From: Delftia sp. PS-11
Lineage (GTDB): Bacteria; Pseudomonadota; Gammaproteobacteria; Burkholderiales; Burkholderiaceae_C
DNA length: 55,000 bases
Assembly (NCBI RefSeq): GCF_029870285.1
Contig: NZ_JACSYA010000025.1
Location: 1-55,000 of the forward strand
Direction: 5' to 3'
Part shown: in pieces, positions 35,867 through 44,005 of the stretch
Layout: every line of letters begins with the position of its first letter
Numbering within the stretch: position 1 is the first letter of the stretch
Position numbers and translations under genes: made by a program
Notes under the pieces: generated by a model
Database searches by the model: none
What the model was told of the DNA's origin: nothing
Seen by the model: the letters and a program-made list of their open reading frames with translations, nothing else

Positions 35867-35927
35867 TTTCACGATGACTCCAGCCCGACATTTCGCTGGA
35901 CTGCGCTGTAGCCCGATACGGCTTTGC

Positions 35928-36164
35928 ACGCGAGGCTGCCTGGACGCCATTGCACAGCGGCAAGCGATGGCGGTGATCGCACCGCGCAAGAACGCCCGCT
36001 ATTGGAAGAAGTCGAGTCCGGGCTCGGCGCATCGCAACGAGGCCATTCGCGCGTGCCAACGTTTGGGCCGCAGCATCTGCAAGAACCGTACCGGTGGCTG
36101 CCGTGGCATAGGTCCGTCTGGGGTGGGGTCATGCCGTCTGCAACTCGATTTGTGCAACAAAGCC
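35928..36164 (+). mobile_element. IS5-family insertion sequence remnant (3' end)
   Basis: Plus-strand translation from about 35928 to 36098 (TRGCLDAIAQRQAMAVIAPR, then RKNARYWKKSSPGSAHRNEA and RACQRLGRSICKNRTG) matches the C-terminal part of IS5-family DDE transposases. No intact transposase exists: the 5' part is missing and the tail after NRTG is garbled. A terminal-inverted-repeat-like sequence, GATTTGTGCAACAAAGCC, ends the element at 36147-36164. The element truncates the fur-like gene on its right. The 60 bp to its left, back to the tyrB terminator, show nothing recognisable. Confidence 0.75.
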
Positions 36165-36446
36165 TTCGTACACACGAGATGGTCATGGTGCATCCCGTCA
36201 TCCAGCTCATAAACAGCTCGTCCTGCCTCGAAGTGCGCCTGCTTGAGCAGGCCCGTCTTGCTGCAATTGTGTGAGCACGCGGTACACGATAGCCAGACCG
36301 ACCTCGTGGCCTTGCTTGCACAGCAGGCGATACACCTCTTCGGCTGTCAAATGACACACATCTGCTTTCTGAAACATTTCCAGGATTTGCAGCCGAGGCA
36401 GCGTGGCCTTCAAGCCTCAGTTTCTGAGTTCGGTTCAATCAGGCAT
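36165..36446 (-). pseudogene. decayed fur paralogue, truncated by IS5-like element
   Basis: Minus-strand translation gives a clear Fur N-terminus ([19 protein letters not shown], then [11 protein letters not shown], then [18 protein letters not shown]). After a frameshift at about 36252-36254 (one extra G in the coding strand) it continues as [19 protein letters not shown] and MHHDHLVCT. Two TGA codons (36435-36437 and 36417-36419) interrupt the first 10 codons. Homology stops right after HHDHLVCT at the IS end, so the C-terminal metal-binding half is lost. The ATG at 36446 overlaps the dihydroorotase stop, so this was once the last gene of the zinc operon. Confidence 0.85.
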
Positions 36447-37836
36447 CAGACTCTCCTCTGGTTTCCTGTGACCACGATTCCAGGAACCGAACCGCCGTGC
36501 CTTGCGGCTCTCCGGTCAGGGCTTCATCCCGAACGACACAGCACCCTCGCACCACCGTGTGAATGGGCCAGCCCGTGACAGCCTGACCGTCATACGGCGT
36601 CCAGCCACTGACGCTGGCGATCCAGCCATTGCGGATGACGCGACGTGCCCGTAAATCGACGATGCTGAAATCCGCGTCGTAGCCCAGCGCGATGCGCCCC
36701 TTGCCCTCGATGCCGAAGATGCGGGCCGGCCCTGCGCTGGTCAAATCCACCAGCCGTTGCAGGCTCAGGCGCCCGGCATGCACATGGTCTAGCATCACGG
36801 GCAGCAGCGTCTGCACGCCTGTCATCCCACTGGGAGATTCGGGGTAAGGCCGTGCTTTCTCAACCAGCGTGTGGGGCGCATGGTCGCTGCCGATGACATC
36901 GACAAGACCATTGCGGATCGCCTGCCATAGCGCATCCGTATGGCGCTGTTCACGCACGGGCGGATTCATCTGCGCCAGACTGCTCAGGCGCTCATAGCAG
37001 TCCGGTGCTTGCAAGCTCAGGTGGTGCGGCGTGACTTCCACCGTGACGCGATGCTTGTGACCCGCCAGGAACGCCATTTCCTCGGCGGTGGAGACATGCA
37101 GGACATGCAGGCGCCGACCAGATTCTTCTGCCAGCCGCACGATGCGCTGCGTCGCCATCAACGCGCTGTCAACATCGCGCCAGACAGGGTGCTGGCGCAC
37201 GTCCGCGCTGTCCACGGCGATGTGCCTGCGCTCGCGCAGCCGGGCCTCGTCCTCGGCATGCACGGCCAGCCGCCTGCGCCCACGACACAGGATGCGGCGC
37301 AGCACTTCATCGTCATCCGCCAGCAGGTCGCCGAAGGAGCTGCCCATGAAGACCTTGACGCCTGCGCAGCCCGGCAGGTTCTCCAGTTCGGCCAGTTGCT
37401 CCGCATTTACGGCAGAGCCGCCGACATAGAAAGCGTGATCGCACCACGCACGGCCACGGGCGGCATCCAACTTGGCTTGCAGGTCAGCGGCGTTCAAGGT
37501 CAGCGGGGCCGTGTTCGGCATCTCGAAAATGGCGGTGATGCCGCCCAGCACCGCCCCGCGCGTGCCAGCCTCCAGGTTCTCCTTGTGCATCAAGCCCGGT
37601 TCGCGGAAATGCACCTGACTGTCGATGACGCCGGGCAGCACATGCAGGCCGGTGGCGTCCAGTGTGCTCTCGGCGCTCCATGTGCCGCAAAGATCGCCCA
37701 GCGCAACGATCTGGCCGTGCGCGCAGGCCACGTCAATGTGCTCGGCCCCGCTGGGCGTCATGACGGTCGCACCCCGCACCAGAAGATCAGCGTGCCGGCC
37801 CGCCGCTGGCGTGATGACGTTGCCGGTGACATTCAT
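36439..37836 (-). CDS. pyrC: dihydroorotase paralogue (pyrC-like) of the zinc operon
   Basis: A 465-residue amidohydrolase that should cyclise N-carbamoyl-aspartate to dihydroorotate in pyrimidine synthesis. Family motifs: the carboxylated-lysine position Lys161 in KVFMGSS, His193 (AVHAED), His247 (HVLHVST) and Asp318 (GSDHAPH). The usual first HxH zinc motif reads SQVHFREPG, so the first His is Gln74 while His76 remains. This suggests a changed metal centre. I recall such Gln variants in some bacterial dihydroorotases. The start overlaps the TGS gene stop (ATGA), and a zinc-limitation role fits the context. Confidence 0.85.
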
Positions 37837-38120
37837 GAGGCAGTCTCCAGTGCGTCAACCACAGCTTCGCCGGAGGTGTGCTGGCGGTGCAGACGAACGC
37901 ACAGGCGGCGTTGCGCCTTGCTGCGTGCAGCGGCGTCCGGCGCTTGCGATGCCCGCGCATCAACGAGCTGCTCGTCGAATTTGCCTGCCACCGTGTTCCG
38001 GGCCAGCCCTGCGCCAATCGTGGCAGCGACCTCGGCCACGGTGACAGGATGGTCGAAATGGCGCTGCGATCCATCCGGCAAGGTCAGCGTAATGGCTTGT
38101 TGAGGGAGTGTGATGTCCAT
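37833..38120 (-). CDS. stand-alone TGS domain protein (threonyl-tRNA synthetase N-terminus-like)
   Basis: A 95-residue protein. Residues 8-57 ([21 protein letters not shown]...[18 protein letters not shown]) match the N-terminal TGS domain of threonyl-tRNA synthetase. After residue 58 the match ends, and the remaining Arg/Ala-rich tail resembles nothing I know. No catalytic domain exists here. Zinc-regulated second copies of thrS occur in similar clusters, so this may be the remnant of one. It might instead be a functional stand-alone TGS protein, since the frame is intact and its stop overlaps the next start (ATGA). It lies 2 bp after the carbonic anhydrase-like gene. Confidence 0.65.
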
Positions 38121-38122
38121 GT

Positions 38123-38683
38123 TCAGAACTCGTTTTGAATGGCCTTGTAGCCAAGCACCAGCTCGTTATTGGTGCGCGCCACGTCTTCGGAAAACTCGCT
38201 GGCGGCAGCAGGCACTTGCGGCAGCGAGGCAAGATCAGTGTCCGGGCCGATGCGCTCGGTGGAGCGCACGTAGAACCCCGCAGGCAGATGCACGCCATCG
38301 ACCACGGCGTTGTAGCGAACCACGCAACCGTCATCGACCCTGCAGTTGAACAGCACGCTGTTGAAGCCGACGAAGACGCCGTTGCCGATAGCGCAGGGGC
38401 CATGCACGATGGCGCGATGGGCAATGGAAGTGCGCTGCCCGACCCGCACGCTAGCGCCGGACTTGGAATGGATCACCACGCCGTCCTGGATGTTGGAGTG
38501 GGCGCCGATCACGATGGGGGCGATGTGTCCATCGGCATCCATCTCATCCGCACGGATGACCGCATAGGGGCCGATGAACACGTTTTCCTCGACGACCACG
38601 AGGCCGCACAGGATGGCCGTCGGATCGACAAAGGCGCTGGGATGAATATGTGGCAGGTCGCCGCGTGGGTTTTTGCGGATCAT
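38123..38683 (-). CDS. gamma-carbonic anhydrase-like hexapeptide protein
   Basis: A 186-residue left-handed beta-helix protein of the gamma-carbonic anhydrase/YrdA group. Hexapeptide turns run through residues 15-140 (for example [18 protein letters not shown]). The three metal histidines are His72 (VVIHSK), His89 (SIAHR) and His94 (AIVHG), with the family five-residue step between the last two. Gamma enzymes can use iron or cobalt as well as zinc, which would suit a zinc-starvation operon. Its start overlaps the stop of the broken yidD (ATGA). Confidence 0.82.
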
Positions 38684-39087
38684 GGTGGGTTGGGCAGTGA
38701 TGTTGTGGTTTTGGCGGGTGGCACGGGGTCATGCCCGCCTGGGTGCAGCGGATGGCAGCGCAGAAGGCTCCGCAGTGCCAGCCTGCCTCCCTTGAGAACC
38801 GCTAACACGACCCAGCAAATCGAAGATTTGCGGTTGAGACGAGGCGCGAAGCCGCAGGCAGTACAAACGGTACGACAAGGCGAAGCAACGACGTATCAAG
38901 GGTTGTGTTAGCGGTTCCGAAGGCCCCATGCGTTTGCAAGGCTTCGACGGCGTACTGCGAGCAAGTCGGGTGGAACCGGCAGCGCGGGCCGAACATCGGG
39001 CTGATGAACAACTGGTAGCTGCGCATCGACGTGGAAGCCAGTCAGCAAAGTGACCGGGATCAGACGGGATAGGGATTCGGTGGTCAT
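38680..39087 (-). pseudogene. yidD: yidD, broken by a frameshift and a 122-bp insertion
   Basis: YidD is a small membrane-associated protein linked to inner-membrane insertion. Here the N-terminal part reads [20 protein letters not shown], then [15 protein letters not shown]. The C-terminal part reads KGGRLALRSLLRCHPLHPGG, then HDPVPPAK. Between them sits a foreign 122-bp element. A good ribosome site (AAGGAG) precedes the ATG at 39087, but that frame must lose one base near 39042 to join the YidD frame. Two independent lesions make a non-functional gene likely. The stop overlaps the next start, so the original operon coupling is still visible. Confidence 0.85.
38796..38917. mobile_element. 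122-bp MITE-like element inserted in yidD
   Basis: The element is bounded by 18-bp terminal inverted repeats (GAACCGCTAACACGACCC at 38796-38813 and its near-perfect complement at 38900-38917, one mismatch). It has no coding capacity and splits yidD cleanly between codons for THGAF and KGGRLAL. A target duplication is at most 2-3 bp (a shared TC/TTC). This fits a non-autonomous miniature transposon; the parent family is unknown. Confidence 0.75.
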
Positions 39088-39099
39088 GCGCACACTCCT

Positions 39100-39999
39100 T
39101 CAGGCATGGGAGCCCGCCCACGCCACCGCGTCATGCGGGTGCAGGCTCTCCAGGTGCCGGACATGGACGCTGGGGCTGGCGTAGCCACTCAATGCCGCCT
39201 CGATGCGCCGGGCTGCGTCCTCAACGAACATCAGGTTCTGGCCGTTGAGCGCCGCGAACGCCTGTTCATCGGCGCGCTTGACCGCCGTTTGCACCGGCGT
39301 GCCCACGGCCTGCTCGATGCAGTCGATCAGCGCCAGCAACCCGAGCGTGTCGGCGTCGCTGGGCACGTCCACCGTGACCTGCGCCTCGCTGCGCTGGCTA
39401 TGCGGCGTCGCCAGCGTCGCATGCTGATGCAGCCAGGCAGCCACGTCTGTCGGCTCCACCGGGGACTGCTGACCGAAGGCTTTCAGGAAACCCTGTTCGA
39501 TGATCTGCCGTGACAGCGCGGCCGAACAGGGGCAGGTCGAGGAATAGGCAGCAGTGACCCGCACGCGGCACCTGAATACGCCATTAATGAGGGAAACATC
39601 CAAGCAGACGGGATAGGACTTCCAGCCGGACAGTCCCTGCGTGACCAGCGCCGGACGCCGCACAAGCAGCGCAAAGTTCAAGCGCAGCCGTGCGCAACGA
39701 CTGTCACAGTCCTGATGACTAGCGATCATGGCCTGGAGCAGATGGCGCAGGCCAGCGGGCGACAGCGTCTCTCCCTGGCCCAGTGCATCCAGCAGCCGGT
39801 ACAGCCGGGACATGTGGATGCCCTTGACATGCGGGGCGGGCAAATCGACCTGCACGTCGGCGTGCGCATGCAGTTCGCGCCGGTAGCCAGGCTCGGCCAC
39901 GGTGATGGGCAGGTCGATACCCTGCATACCGACCCACGCCAGCGGACTGAGGCGGGGAGCGATGTCGGTCAGTGAAACGTCGGGAAGTGCGGCATTCAT
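39100..39999 (-). CDS. folE2: GTP cyclohydrolase FolE2 (zinc-independent type IB)
   Basis: A 299-residue GTP cyclohydrolase of the FolE2 (COG1469) family, which makes dihydroneopterin triphosphate for folate. Family motifs are [11 protein letters not shown], the catalytic Cys region [14 protein letters not shown] (Cys156, Cys158) and [12 protein letters not shown]. Unlike zinc-dependent FolE, FolE2 works with manganese or other metals and replaces FolE under zinc starvation, which fits this operon. It lies 61 bp after the COG0523 GTPase gene and 12 bp before the broken yidD. Confidence 0.93.
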
Positions 40000-40060
40000 G
40001 CTCTAAATCCAGTAGGGGGTGCGCCCCCACCCGGTTCAGAGCACGGGGAGCACGGTCAAA

Positions 40061-41272
40061 TCAGGACCAATCGGGGAACGGGTTGTGCCAGGTTGTCCAC
40101 GTCTTGGGGCCTTGGGCCATTTCTTCATCCGTCAGCAGACAGGCATCGAAGCGCGCACGCAGCGCGGCCTCGTCCATGTCCATACCGATCAGCACCAGTT
40201 CCTGGCGGGCGTCGCCGACGTGTTCGTCCCATTTCTCGCGGATCAGCGCCACGGCTTCAGGGTCTTGCGGCCAGCGCTCCTGTGGCACGGCGGCCCACCA
40301 GTAGCCCGCTACGTTATGCCGGGCCACCGCGCCTGCCTGCGACCAATTGCCCGCCAGCGTCGGATGGCAGGCAAGCCAGAAGAAGCCTTTGGAGCGCACT
40401 ACGCCGGGCCATTCGCTTCGCACCCAGTCGAAGAAGCGTTGCGGATGGAAGGGCCGTCGCGCGCGATAGACGAAGTTGCGGATGCCGTATTCCTCAGTTT
40501 CTGGCGTGTGTGTACCGCGCAGCTCTTGCAACCAGCCCGGCGCCCTGGAGGCTTCGTCGAAATCGAACAGACCGGTATCCAGTACGCGGTCGAGCGGCAC
40601 CTTGCCGAACTCGGCGATCTCGATACGGGCACGCGGATTGAGGCTGCGCAAAATCGCCATCAACCGCTCGCGCTCCTCGTCGCTGACCAGGTCAACCTTG
40701 TTCAGCACGATCACGTCGCAGAACTCGATCTGCTCGATCAACAGGTCCACCACCGTGCGCTGGTCTTCATCGCCCAGGGACTCGCCGCGCGACTGGATGC
40801 TGTCGCGCGAGCTGTAGTCGCGCAGGAAGTTGAAGGCATCGACCACCGTCACCATCGTGTCGAGCCGGGCCACTGCACCCAGGCTGCGGCCGTCCTCGCC
40901 CTCGAAGGTGAAGGTTTCCGCCACTGGCAGCGGCTCTGAAATCCCCGTGGATTCGATCACGAGCTGGTCGAAGCGGCCTTCTTTGGCAAGGCGATCCACT
41001 TCAAGCAGCAAATCCTCGCGCAGCGTGCAGCAGATACAACCATTGCTCATCTCCACCAGCTTCTCGTCTGTGCGCGACAGCTCGGCCCCGCCTTCGCGCA
41101 CCAGCGCGGCGTCGATGTTGACCTCGCTCATGTCGTTGACGATGACCGCGACGCGCCGGCTCTCACGGTTGTTGAGGATGTGGTTGAGCAGCGTGGTCTT
41201 ACCCGCGCCCAGAAAGCCGGACAGGACAGTGACGGGGAGCTTCTTCGTGGGATCTAGGGTTGCGGTTTTCAT
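40061..41272 (-). CDS. zigA: COG0523 GTPase, ZigA/YciC-like zinc metallochaperone
   Basis: A 403-residue G3E GTPase proposed to deliver zinc to client enzymes when zinc is scarce. Walker A is GFLGAGKTT (19-27), the metal motif CICC includes Cys79, Cys81 and Cys82, Walker B lies in ESTGISEP (107-114), and the guanine motif NKVD is at 191-194. A C-terminal CobW_C domain follows. It sits between zur (42 bp upstream) and folE2. Context with Zur-type regulators supports zinc rather than cobalt or nitrile-hydratase use. Confidence 0.9.
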
Positions 41273-41314
41273 GTTGATTTCTTCATCTTCATGGGCAATC
41301 AGCTTGACGAGGCG

Positions 41315-41728
41315 TCACTGCGGCCCTGCGCAAGCTGCACATTTGCCGTGCAATTCGATGGTCGAACTGCGCAGCGCGAAGGATTTGCTCTTTGTCCAAC
41401 GGCCAATGGAGCGCCCCAAATCACGACCAGAAAACTCGTCAACATGGCCGCACTGATCGCAGATGGCGAAGGCCCTGAGGCCGTACTGGCAGTCCACTGC
41501 GTGATTGCATGGCACGTACGCATTCAAGGTCGCAAGACGGTGTACCAACCCATCGTTGGCCAAACGCTCCAGAGCCCGATAGACCTGCATGGGCGCACTG
41601 AAACCGTGCTCCCGCAACCGATCAAGAAGCGCATATGCGCCGAGCGGCTCGCTGGCTTGCCGAAGGGCCGTAAGGACTCGTTGCTGGTTGGTGGTGAGTT
41701 GCACAGAACGCTCCGTGGATCGCGACAT
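41315..41728 (-). CDS. zur: Zur-type Fur-family zinc regulator (first copy)
   Basis: A 137-residue Fur-family repressor. The winged helix lies at about 10-70 (APMQVYRALERLANDGLVHRL). Structural zinc cysteines are in CDQCGHVDEF (Cys90, Cys93) and HGKCAAC (Cys130, Cys133). The pattern LATLNAYVPCNH and the spacing fit Zur better than Fur. As first gene of the zinc operon it should be autoregulated. A palindrome of Zur-box type lies 26-45 bp upstream of its start. Confidence 0.88.
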   Translation of the reverse strand: MSRSTERSVQLTTNQQRVLTALRQASEPLGAYALLDRLREHGFSAPMQVYRALERLANDGLVHRLATLNAYVPCNHAVDCQYGLRAFAICDQCGHVDEFSGRDLGRSIGRWTKSKSFALRSSTIELHGKCAACAGPQ

Positions 41729-41753
41729 GCGTTTGCACAGTCATTGGACGCTT

Positions 41754-41773
41754 TGTTACGTTATAACATAACA
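41754..41773. promoter_or_regulatory. Zur-box-like palindrome upstream of zur
   Basis: The sequence TGTTAC-GTTATAAC-ATAACA is a near-perfect 20-bp palindrome. Its 15-bp core at 41759-41773 matches 12 of 14 fixed positions of the enterobacterial Zur half-site pattern TGTTATA-N-TATAACA. It lies just upstream of the minus-strand zur operon. Confidence 0.75.
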
Positions 41774-41942
41774 TTCTTGAAGCAAAAATACCCACAGAGT
41801 CTGATTTGAGCAGCGAGCCGATCAAATCAAGTCATGTAGATGAGTTTGGGGGCACCCTAGGCAGGAGCATGGGTGCGATGGGATGCAGACCTGGGCAAGG
41901 TTTGTGATTTCCTCCGCGCGCCAGAAGGACTAGACTGCCGAT

Positions 41943-41957
41943 TGTTACAACATAACC
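41943..41957. promoter_or_regulatory. second Zur-box-like site, upstream of the zur paralogue
   Basis: TGTTACA-A-CATAACC matches 12 of 14 fixed positions of the Zur pattern TGTTATA-N-TATAACA. It ends 9 bp before the ATG of the second zur-like gene, so a bound repressor would block transcription or initiation there. Confidence 0.6.
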
Positions 41958-41966
41958 ATCGAACCA

Positions 41967-42401
41967 ATGTCATCCGCTTCCAAGCTGAGTGCTCGTGAGC
42001 TGACCAAGCACCAATCACTCGTGCTCAACGCACTTGCACATATGGAGAATCCTGCGAGCGCTTACACGCTACTCGACCACCTGAAGGCGGATGGATTGCG
42101 TGCACCGCAACAGGTGTACCGTGCACTGGACAAGCTGATCGAGTACGGGCTCGTGCACCGTGTGGAAACGTTGAATTCGTTCGTTGCATGCGCTCACCCC
42201 CATGGCCATCGACATGGCCTGGTTGTGTTTGCTATTTGCGATCAGTGCGGCCATGCGGAGGAGTTCTTGGACCCAACGATCGAACGCCGCCTCAGAGGCT
42301 GGTCGAAAGACAACACTTTTCGCATGAGCACGGCCTCCGTCGAGATGCATGGCACATGTGTTCGTTGCGAACCTTCCCCAGCAATGGAACAGGCGCTATA
42401 G
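41967..42401 (+). CDS. Zur-type Fur-family zinc regulator (second copy)
   Basis: A 144-residue Fur-family protein related to the divergent zur copy. Shared features include APQQVYRALDKLIEYGLVHRVETLNS, CDQCGHAEEF (Cys91, Cys94) and HGTCVRC (Cys131, Cys134). A His-rich loop AHPHGHRHG at about 76-84 is longer than in the first copy and may change metal affinity. It is divergent from the zinc operon across a 238-bp gap holding both Zur-box-like sites. Nothing follows it on the same strand, so it forms the right edge of the island. Confidence 0.85.
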   Translation: MSSASKLSARELTKHQSLVLNALAHMENPASAYTLLDHLKADGLRAPQQVYRALDKLIEYGLVHRVETLNSFVACAHPHGHRHGLVVFAICDQCGHAEEFLDPTIERRLRGWSKDNTFRMSTASVEMHGTCVRCEPSPAMEQAL

Positions 42402-42410
42402 CCGCGCAGC

Positions 42411-42426
42411 GGCTTTGTTACACAAA
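42411..42426 (+). repeat. IS5-like terminal inverted repeat at the right edge of the zinc island
   Basis: GGCTTTGTTACACAAA matches, with one difference, the reverse complement of the IS end at 36147-36164 (GGCTTTGTTGCACAAA). No transposase coding is visible beyond it. Confidence 0.45.
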
Positions 42427-42535: not shown

Positions 42536-44005
42536 TCAGCCACCCCGATGGCGCTGCAGCAGATGGCCCAGCATCTTGCAGGCCTGGGGCTGATCCACCA
42601 TGGGCACAGGGATGCGCAGCATGCTGCCCGCAGCCTGGCGCGGGGAAAACAGCAGGCCCGGCGCCAGCAGCAGGCCCTGGGCAGCGGCGTGGCGGGCCAG
42701 CACTTCGGAGTCCATGCCGCAATCGACCCAGGCGAACATACCGGCCTGCGGTTCATGGGGGGCGCGGCAGCCCATGCCTTCGAGCATGCGCAGGCAACGT
42801 CCGCGTGCCCGGTCCACACGCTCACGCAGCCGCTCCACATGCTTGCGGTACTGGCCGTCAGCCAGCACCCGGTGCACGACCTGCTCTCCGGGCAAGGCTG
42901 TCGTCAGGCCGCCCAGCAGTTTGAGGTCGGTGAGACGCCGGATCAGGTCGGCCTGCGCTGCCACGTAGCCAACACGCAGGCTGGCAGCCAGCGTCTTGGA
43001 ATAGCCGCCCACCAGCAGCACGCGCTGCAGCCGGTCCAGCGCAGCCAGCCGCACTGGCGTGCCGGGCAGGAAGTCCGAATACGTGTCGTCCTCGACCAGC
43101 AGGAAATCATGGCGTTCGGCAATGCGCAGCATTTCATGCGCGGTGCCGGCAGACAGCGTCTGCCCCGTGGGATTGTGCACCGCCGTGTTCAGGATGAACA
43201 GCCGGGGAGAGTGCTGGCGCGCCAGCCGCTCCAGCGCCTCCACGTCGGGGCCTCCAGGCAGCCTCGGCACACCGACCACATTCACACCCAACGCCGTGAG
43301 CAGGCCAAAGATCAGGAACCAGCCGGGGTCTTCGACCAGCACGGTATCGCCCGCCTGCACGAAACTGCGCACGATCAGGTCCAGCCCCTGGGTGACGCCG
43401 GCCACGGTCATCAGGTTGGACTCTGGGTGGGCCGGCACGTCCTGGGACTGCAGCACCGATGCAATCTGCTGGCGAAGCGGCGCATAGCCCTGGGGCGCAC
43501 CATACGTCAGCAGGCTGACGCCAGTGCTGCGCCCCACGGCACGCAGGGCAGAAGCCAGCATGTCCCGGTCCAGCCATTCGGGCGGGAGCATGCCGGCGCC
43601 TCCCGAATGCTCCATGCCCTCGCGGAACATGTTGCGCAGCAGGAAGGCCGTATCGAAAGCAGTGCCCTGCTCCAGCACAGCCGGCCCGCTGGGCTGCGTG
43701 CTGAGCTGCGCAGTCCTCAGGGCGCTGACAAAAAAGCCCGCGCCGCGCCGTGAATGTATCAGTCCCTGGGCGGCCAGCCGGTCATAGGCCTGGACCACAG
43801 TATCCCGGCTGACGCCGGCCTCTTCGGCCAGCGCACGCACCGAGGGCAGGCGGGCACCAGCGCGCAGCCCATGGTTGCGGATCAGCCCGCCATAGTGCGC
43901 AACCAGTTGCTCCACCAGCGACAGGTCCGAGGAGCGCAAGGGGCGCCAATGGCCGGCAGCGCCAGAAGAGCTTGCCTGGTTCGCAGAATCAAGTGTCAGG
44001 GTCAT
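42536..44005 (-). CDS. MocR-type GntR/aminotransferase fusion regulator
   Basis: A 489-residue MocR regulator. A GntR winged helix occupies about 28-95 (LPSVRALAEEAGVSRDTVVQAYDRLAAQGLIHSRRGAGFFV). A long linker leads to an aminotransferase-fold domain with NPTGQTLS, EDDTYSDF and the PLP lysine in YSKTLAASLRVGY. Such proteins use PLP as effector and often control a neighbouring transporter. It is divergent from a LysE-family gene, its likely target. Two inverted repeats lie in the shared gap. Confidence 0.9.
   Translation of the reverse strand: MTLTLDSANQASSSGAAGHWRPLRSSDLSLVEQLVAHYGGLIRNHGLRAGARLPSVRALAEEAGVSRDTVVQAYDRLAAQGLIHSRRGAGFFVSALRTAQLSTQPSGPAVLEQGTAFDTAFLLRNMFREGMEHSGGAGMLPPEWLDRDMLASALRAVGRSTGVSLLTYGAPQGYAPLRQQIASVLQSQDVPAHPESNLMTVAGVTQGLDLIVRSFVQAGDTVLVEDPGWFLIFGLLTALGVNVVGVPRLPGGPDVEALERLARQHSPRLFILNTAVHNPTGQTLSAGTAHEMLRIAERHDFLLVEDDTYSDFLPGTPVRLAALDRLQRVLLVGGYSKTLAASLRVGYVAAQADLIRRLTDLKLLGGLTTALPGEQVVHRVLADGQYRKHVERLRERVDRARGRCLRMLEGMGCRAPHEPQAGMFAWVDCGMDSEVLARHAAAQGLLLAPGLLFSPRQAAGSMLRIPVPMVDQPQACKMLGHLLQRHRGG

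Follow-up and report, generated by a model that had tools for sequence, protein, structure and literature searches.

An apparently imported and trimmed zinc-starvation operon in Delftia sp. PS-11

The 55,000-nucleotide stretch of Delftia sp. PS-11 analyzed here (NZ_JACSYA010000025.1, positions 1 to 55,000; hereafter the window) carries at 36165-42410 an island of zinc-shortage genes, ordered zurA-zigA-folE2-gammaCA-pyrC2 from 41728 down to 36439 on the minus strand, with zurB divergent on the plus strand. Judged by gene calls and profile matches, the genes are genuine and form a zinc-shortage operon of an already known kind. Comparison with relatives suggests, with a probability that we put at about 0.8, that the island is a horizontally acquired, self-regulated operon of the COG0523/folE2 type, trimmed from a longer mobile version. 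An earlier note, made from the sequence alone, had named these genes; gene calls and profiles recover them at or near the places it named, with ZigA, FolE2 and PyrC2 over cut-off. Its placing of all genes on one strand holds from zurA to pyrC2 and fails for zurB. Where it had seen several ATGA overlaps there are two (thrS2 stub/pyrC2 at 37833-37836 and yidD remnant/gammaCA at 38680-38683), with gaps elsewhere, including 61 nt between folE2 and zigA and 42 nt between zigA and zurA.

Erosion of a longer operon

A contig named Rubrivivax sp. SCN 70-15 (L020) carries the order zurB<>zurA-zigA-folE2-COG0523b-cysS-yidD-gammaCA-PIG-L-thrS-pyrC2-fur. One genus mate, G050, has the same gene set minus the PIG-L open reading frame (ORF), with ThrS, CysS and YidD over cut-off and COG0523b under every COG0523 cut-off; another, G020, aligns to COG0523b, cysS, yidD, thrS and fur. 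In L020, fur is an intact ORF of 144 amino acids (aa) over the Pfam cut-off, to which G050 and G020 align over 142 of the 144 residues without a stop, and intact yidD encodes 85 aa in all three. The window is collinear with G050 over 36166-42388 except for three changes, and the collinearity ends in a fourth: 1745 bp of thrS2 are absent, joining residues 1-56 to 638-676; at 39025/39033 a stretch of 2473 bp is absent, and with it cysS2 as a whole and COG0523b beyond its first ~18 codons; yidD is split by an insert of 123 bp; and fur breaks off at 36164, at an IS5-family end. Given this collinearity, the lone TGS protein, the oddity of yidD and the fur remnant are scars of deletion and insertion. 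The TGS protein and the fur remnant had been taken in the earlier note for meaningful parts of an unusual combination, a view that we abandon: the former is an internally deleted threonyl-tRNA synthetase gene and the latter a frameshifted, truncated leftover. A reading of the TGS protein as a new small protein of its own was likewise rejected, its two parts being those of ThrS2.

The combination with yidD had also been called unusual. We counted companion genes (matches of 45% identity or more across half the length, lying no further than 10 kb from folE2) in 80 named FolE2 loci (L020-L099), and yidD, though broken in the window, is a regular companion in zinc operons: it occurs in 16 of the 80 loci, 14 of which also have cysS2, while cysS2, thrS2 and COG0523b are found in 17, 19 and 14, respectively. 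Judged by title, none of the papers listed by a literature search linked YidD to zinc shortage or Zur.

The thrS2 stub keeps its frame across the loss of 581 codons and retains the ATGA overlap with pyrC2. Since it is in frame, translation could still reach pyrC2 through the overlap, and the stub could serve as a translated leader for that gene. That the stub is itself a selected product, either as a TGS domain or as a coupling leader for pyrC2, would add to the reading of an imported and trimmed operon; the preserved frame and overlap favor it, but about one deletion in three would preserve the frame by chance and no other genome with such a stub turned up, though no search aimed at stubs was made, and we consider it rather unlikely.

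Regulators, paralogues and known systems

Exact matches to the Zur-type box pattern GTTAYGTTRTAAC occur three times in the 5.44-Mb genome, all at 41755-41956 between zurA and zurB. When the 300 bp upstream of zurA, zigA or folE2 were scanned in the 80 named loci, a box was present in 39, vs. 0 of 80 shuffled sets. The claim of a Zur-controlled operon is thus borne out at the level of pattern matches, which support Zur control of the predicted operators.

The island holds the sole match in the genome to PF02649 (FolE2). Counterparts of four of its genes are encoded elsewhere: FolE1 (PF01227, one match, on C11), a class II PyrC on C44 (over cut-off), a ThrS on C6 that is 57% identical to ThrS2 (the match table counts one TGA within the matched stretch) and an intact YidD on C18. 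These four genes of the island are or were therefore second copies, and for them a reading as sole housekeeping copies, a circumstance that the earlier note said would speak against its proposal, is ruled out.

Metal ligands were counted in aligned relatives, leaving out matches below 40% identity. In PyrC2, Gln replaces the first His of the HxH motif in 41 of 41 relatives, every other checked metal ligand being kept; three metal-type His are kept in gammaCA (35/35) and two Cys in FolE2 (82/82). The CxCC of ZigA is kept in 50 of 51 relatives, the remaining one being unaligned at the site. The nearest solved chain to PyrC2 by sequence, 2gwn, likewise reads QVHFREPG, and the Gln is thus not confined to this operon. 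Another PyrC homologue, on C22 (L003) beside a pyrB-like ORF, reads VDLAVRLREPG at the HxH site, presumably as expected of the inactive PyrC' type.

Zur-regulated COG0523 clusters of this kind have been described in beta- and gamma-proteobacteria (Haas et al. 2009, PMC2770081; the sources cited here by PMC number were available in part, and statements about them refer to those parts). That source gives as an example the Cupriavidus metallidurans cluster yciC-folE2-cysS-queD-cam-pyrC. It also reports a Zur-linked PyrC paralogue with incomplete zinc ligands, along with paralogues of cysteinyl- and threonyl-tRNA synthetase (CysRS, ThrRS) whose ligands are kept. Metal use is therefore not readable from sequence; gammaCA and PyrC2 may use a metal other than zinc. 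The earlier proposal of a zinc-free CO2 and pyrimidine chemistry goes further than the letters allow. COG0523, FolE2, PyrC, gamma-carbonic anhydrase and CysRS and ThrRS paralogues under Zur are common to the published clusters and the operon studied here, whereas the divergent zur pair, yidD, the terminal fur, the erosion and a relative apparently borne on an integrative conjugative element (ICE) are, relative to the available part of PMC2770081, particular to the present case.

A comparable C. metallidurans operon has two Zur sites and stays silent unless zinc starvation is extreme (PMC11340326). In Burkholderia cenocepacia H111, a cluster of COG0523, FolE2, carbonic anhydrase and dihydroorotase genes rises on zinc depletion (PMC10563805), and by analogy the island would be induced in the same way; QueD and acyl-CoA dehydrogenase are features of the B. 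cenocepacia cluster's own. In 15 of 16 Burkholderia loci, ZigA (85-88% identity), gammaCA (86-89%) and PyrC2 (78-80%) lie near folE2, with no match to zurA, cysS, thrS or yidD and no box of the GTTAYGTTRTAAC pattern; the exception, L077 (Candidatus B. verschuerenii), carries zurA together with COG0523b, cysS, yidD and the box.

Origin of the island

Across 53 genomes of the genus, with the MocR orthologue as a gauge of kinship, identities are incongruent. ZigA is found at 76% identity or more in 16 of the 53, and the closest copies are those of G050 (95%) and G020 (93%), genomes whose MocR is only 67% and 69% identical; in the three genomes nearest by MocR (86-87%), ZigA reaches 82-83%. ZigA being this similar in genus mates that are otherwise so distant, the island was probably imported.

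A descent within the lineage, with rearrangement as the only later change, would be in keeping with the spread of ZigA over the genus and with two Delftia loci (L032, L038), where a zurA-zigA-folE2-gammaCA-fur operon lies just past genes syntenic with 46.6-55 kb of the window; the divergence of zurB (below) points the same way. Identity to that Delftia operon is low, however (FolE2 74%, ZigA 82-83%), while ZigA and FolE2 are 91-96% identical in MocR-distant genus mates and the Rubrivivax contig, and homology to the donor type stops at or near two insertion sequence (IS) ends. We therefore regard native inheritance as quite unlikely. The genome of strain PS-11 has one FolE2 match and one ZigA match above 50% identity, and these single matches speak for the absence of the Delftia-type operon from the syntenic site, part of that stretch reading N. 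It is about as improbable, in our judgment, that the whole operon is a decaying relic without function. In favor of that view, two deletions, a mobile insertion, the truncation of fur and the break in yidD fall within 6 kb; against it, the six ORFs are intact, as are the operator matches and every catalytic residue that was checked. Ratios of nonsynonymous to synonymous divergence (dN/dS) for the six intact genes vs. G050, G020 and L020 are 0.06-0.25 (0 to 0.32 among those relatives), which argues against long neutral decay and is no proof of present use.

Several results weigh against the reading of an imported, self-regulated and functioning operon. ZurB shares no more than 80-82% identity with the donor-type copies. 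Its synonymous divergence (dS) from them is ~0.5, vs. 0.17-0.35 for zurA and vs. 0.02-0.06 for zurB among those copies; either the island is therefore a mosaic, or the actual donor is missing from the sample. The L020 contig comes from a metagenome assembly and is possibly misbinned, though both G050 and G020 bear it out. Low dN/dS is common to the relatives too and could predate transfer. Of the two Zur copies that had been proposed, both are Zur-like, exceed the Pfam FUR cut-off (PF01475) and keep their CxxC pairs, yet their best named model, NF008646 (Zur), scores 88 (ZurA) and 85 (ZurB) bits, below its cut-off of 167. Allowing up to one mismatch, the Zur pattern gives one extra place in the genome and a reversed control pattern three, and weaker boxes are thus indistinguishable from chance; 41 of the 80 relatives, including 15 of the 16 Burkholderia loci, have no matching box within 300 bp; and a scan of the region gave no sigma-70-like promoter (shuffle mean 1.4).

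The island, 36165-42410, is exactly the span between two inverted 16-bp IS5-family ends, the left of which (GGCTTTGTTGCACAAA, 36149-36164) forms the border on that side and truncates fur. The window has two matches to the 16-mer at up to two mismatches, vs. a shuffle mean of 0.05; compared with an ISAte1-family IS5 element (L211), which carries the 16-mer at both its ends, one is identical and one is a base off. The ends lie 2 nt and ~5-22 nt outside the limits of donor-type homology (36166 and 42388-42406). Two flanking IS copies could have carried the 6.2 kb into the aspC-MocR junction as an IS5-family composite transposon, which would be a route for import and not a competitor of it. The position of the inverted ends close outside both limits favors this route; against it, an IS body is recognizable at the left copy only (tblastn, 61% over 59 aa to an ISAte1-family transposase), with no alignment better than shuffles beyond the right 16-mer, and we regard the composite transposon as possible but doubtful.

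The G050 copy suggests a conjugative source. Its module lies between TrbB/TraG and ParA, with TrbG, TrbL, TrbJ, TrbB, TraG and ParA over cut-off and a TrbI-like protein below cut-off further out; two proteins near ParA and an integrase-looking ORF gave no NCBIfam match at E 1e-6, and no tRNA was found in the G050 flanks examined. The locus looks like a conjugative element with zinc-scarcity cargo, of what we take, in name and layout, to be the Tn4371 type. This likeness is a feature of the G050 copy: when 17 G050 proteins were compared with the window, none of Trb, TraG, ParA or RepA matched, the only matches being LysR (60 aa), thrS2, yidD and COG0523b (to zigA). G050 and G020 have at least 26 kb in common at 89-95%. 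Beside zurB, G050, G020 and L020 encode a TonB-dependent receptor (called by Pfam on the L020 copy, 99% identical), DUF2149, an ExbB-type protein and a CobN homologue of 1610 aa, and in each of the three a Zur-like box with one mismatch sits where cobN starts; among the 80 named loci, receptor and CobN lie within 10 kb of folE2 only in L020. These four genes, not present in the window, possibly form an arm for zinc or cobalt uptake.

We lean slightly toward a wider proposal, in which a Tn4371-like element carries a complete self-regulated zinc-scarcity kit between genera and the window holds a domesticated, pruned copy. The kit would comprise two Zur, the TonB receptor, CobN, ExbB and DUF2149 with their box, ZigA, FolE2, COG0523b, CysRS, YidD, gamma-carbonic anhydrase, ThrRS, PyrC2 and Fur, and the window copy would have brought its own regulators, holding as it does the genome's only exact Zur-box matches. 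Mobile elements usually carry genes for metal resistance, and a mobile kit for scarcity would turn that pattern around. Among the papers listed by literature searches on Tn4371 elements, or on integrative conjugative elements with zinc starvation, none reported a mobile zinc-scarcity regulon. The island had no match in E. coli genomes, and none of 23 matching plasmid records covered 80% of the region.

Repeat element, features and proposed function

The insert in yidD is a hairpin-forming miniature repeat of 123 bp with ends GAACCGCTAACAC/GTGTTAGCGGTTC. The genome has 14 copies at 96-100% (window copy included), 9 at 77-81% and 3 fragments. Of 7 copies with examined flanks, 6 have exact 3-bp flanking repeats of the type TNA; the window copy has TGA/CGA, and an eighth locus gave no match. 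Matches occur in 45 of the 53 genus genomes, and the 8 without one include the three closest by MocR. At E 1e-3 none was found in the 80 named FolE2 loci.

The element resembles the Correia elements of Neisseria in its inverted-repeat design, in its length, which falls within their 69-151 bp (PMC5039591), and in its core, identical in 62 of 74 columns to a copy from N. gonorrhoeae and present at 34 places in that record. It differs in its ends (GAACCGCTAACAC vs. TATAGTGGATTAA in Correia elements) and its 3-bp TNA flanks; the 26-bp Correia terminal repeat starting TATAGTGGATTAA was not found at the ends of the element, the core alone being common to the two. Correia elements are described as unique to Neisseria in the available part of PMC5039591, and none of the papers listed by our literature searches reports the 123-bp element from Comamonadaceae. 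It differs from BRE, a beta-proteobacterial repeat of 75-91 bp, often tandem, of which 13 were counted in a Delftia genome (PMC3110155), whereas the 123-bp element is without a match in the 8 genus genomes mentioned above; a kinship of the two is conceivable, the comparison having been made by description and not by sequence letters. Miniature inverted-repeat transposable elements are mentioned in Polaromonas (PMC10969869).

The features are listed in Table 1. All NCBIfam carbonic-anhydrase and CcmM models match gammaCA below cut-off. The next gene beyond the island is that of MocR (42536-44005), and Rfam gave no family over the gathering score between 35500 and 43000.

Table 1. Features of the island and its borders, in window coordinates.
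Feature	Position	Strand	Basis
zurA, Zur-like Fur-family repressor, 137 aa	41315..41728	-	PF01475; NF008646 below cut-off
zurB, second Zur-like protein, 144 aa, 45% identical to zurA	41967..42401	+	Profile match and pairwise identity
zigA, COG0523 zinc metallochaperone GTPase with GCICC, 403 aa	40061..41272	-	NF038288, 707 bits (cut-off 600)
folE2, GTP cyclohydrolase IB, 299 aa	39100..39999	-	NF010200, 312 bits (cut-off 215)
gammaCA, gamma-class carbonic anhydrase-like protein, 186 aa, three metal-type His kept	38123..38683	-	Hexapeptide protein
pyrC2, Zur-type dihydroorotase paralogue, 465 aa, first HxH His = Gln-74	36439..37836	-	NF006559, 738 bits (cut-off 482)
COG0523b remnant, first ~18 codons	39033..39087	-	Junction vs. 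G050; reading frames
yidD remnant, without start, split by 123-bp repeat	38683..39026	-	PF01809 in two pieces
thrS2 remnant, ThrS2 residues 1-56 fused in frame to 638-676	37833..38120	-	Comparison with relatives' ThrS
fur remnant, frameshifted and truncated Fur-family gene, intact in L020	36166..36425	-	PF01475 in two pieces
Two overlapping Zur-type boxes upstream of zurA (GTTACGTTATAAC / GTTATGTTATAAC)	41755..41772		Exact pattern match
Zur-type box upstream of zurB (GTTATGTTGTAAC)	41944..41956	-	Exact pattern match
123-bp miniature inverted-repeat element, core related to Neisseria Correia elements	38796..38918		Genome copies and alignment
Truncated IS5-family element, transposase C-terminus; left limit approximate	35880..36164	+	tblastn to IS5-family transposases
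Second IS5-family end (GGCTTTGTTACACAAA), inverted vs. first	42411..42426	+	16-mer match; no IS body recognized behind

Under sufficient zinc, zinc-loaded Zur (ZurA and/or ZurB) would sit on the operators between the zur genes and keep both directions off; as zinc falls Zur would depart, and zurA-zigA-folE2-gammaCA-pyrC2 would be transcribed. ZigA may then route scarce metal, FolE2 would replace zinc-dependent FolE1 at the entry to folate, and gammaCA and PyrC2 would back up carbonic anhydrase and dihydroorotase. After import, two deletions, the 123-bp repeat and an IS5-family end would have cost the operon COG0523b, cysS2, most of thrS2, yidD and fur, the in-frame thrS2 stub still letting translation run into pyrC2.

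An odd-looking cluster can in this way be explained as import plus erosion, and its points of interest are a probable mobile origin and the pruning, the kind of operon being known. The host would have kept the Zur pair, ZigA, FolE2, gammaCA and PyrC2, and lost the tRNA synthetases, YidD, the second COG0523 and Fur. The recurrence of yidD offers a small lead, namely why a membrane-insertion factor should belong to zinc shortage. If the reading of an integrative conjugative element is true, survival at low zinc could be gained by conjugation, own regulators included.

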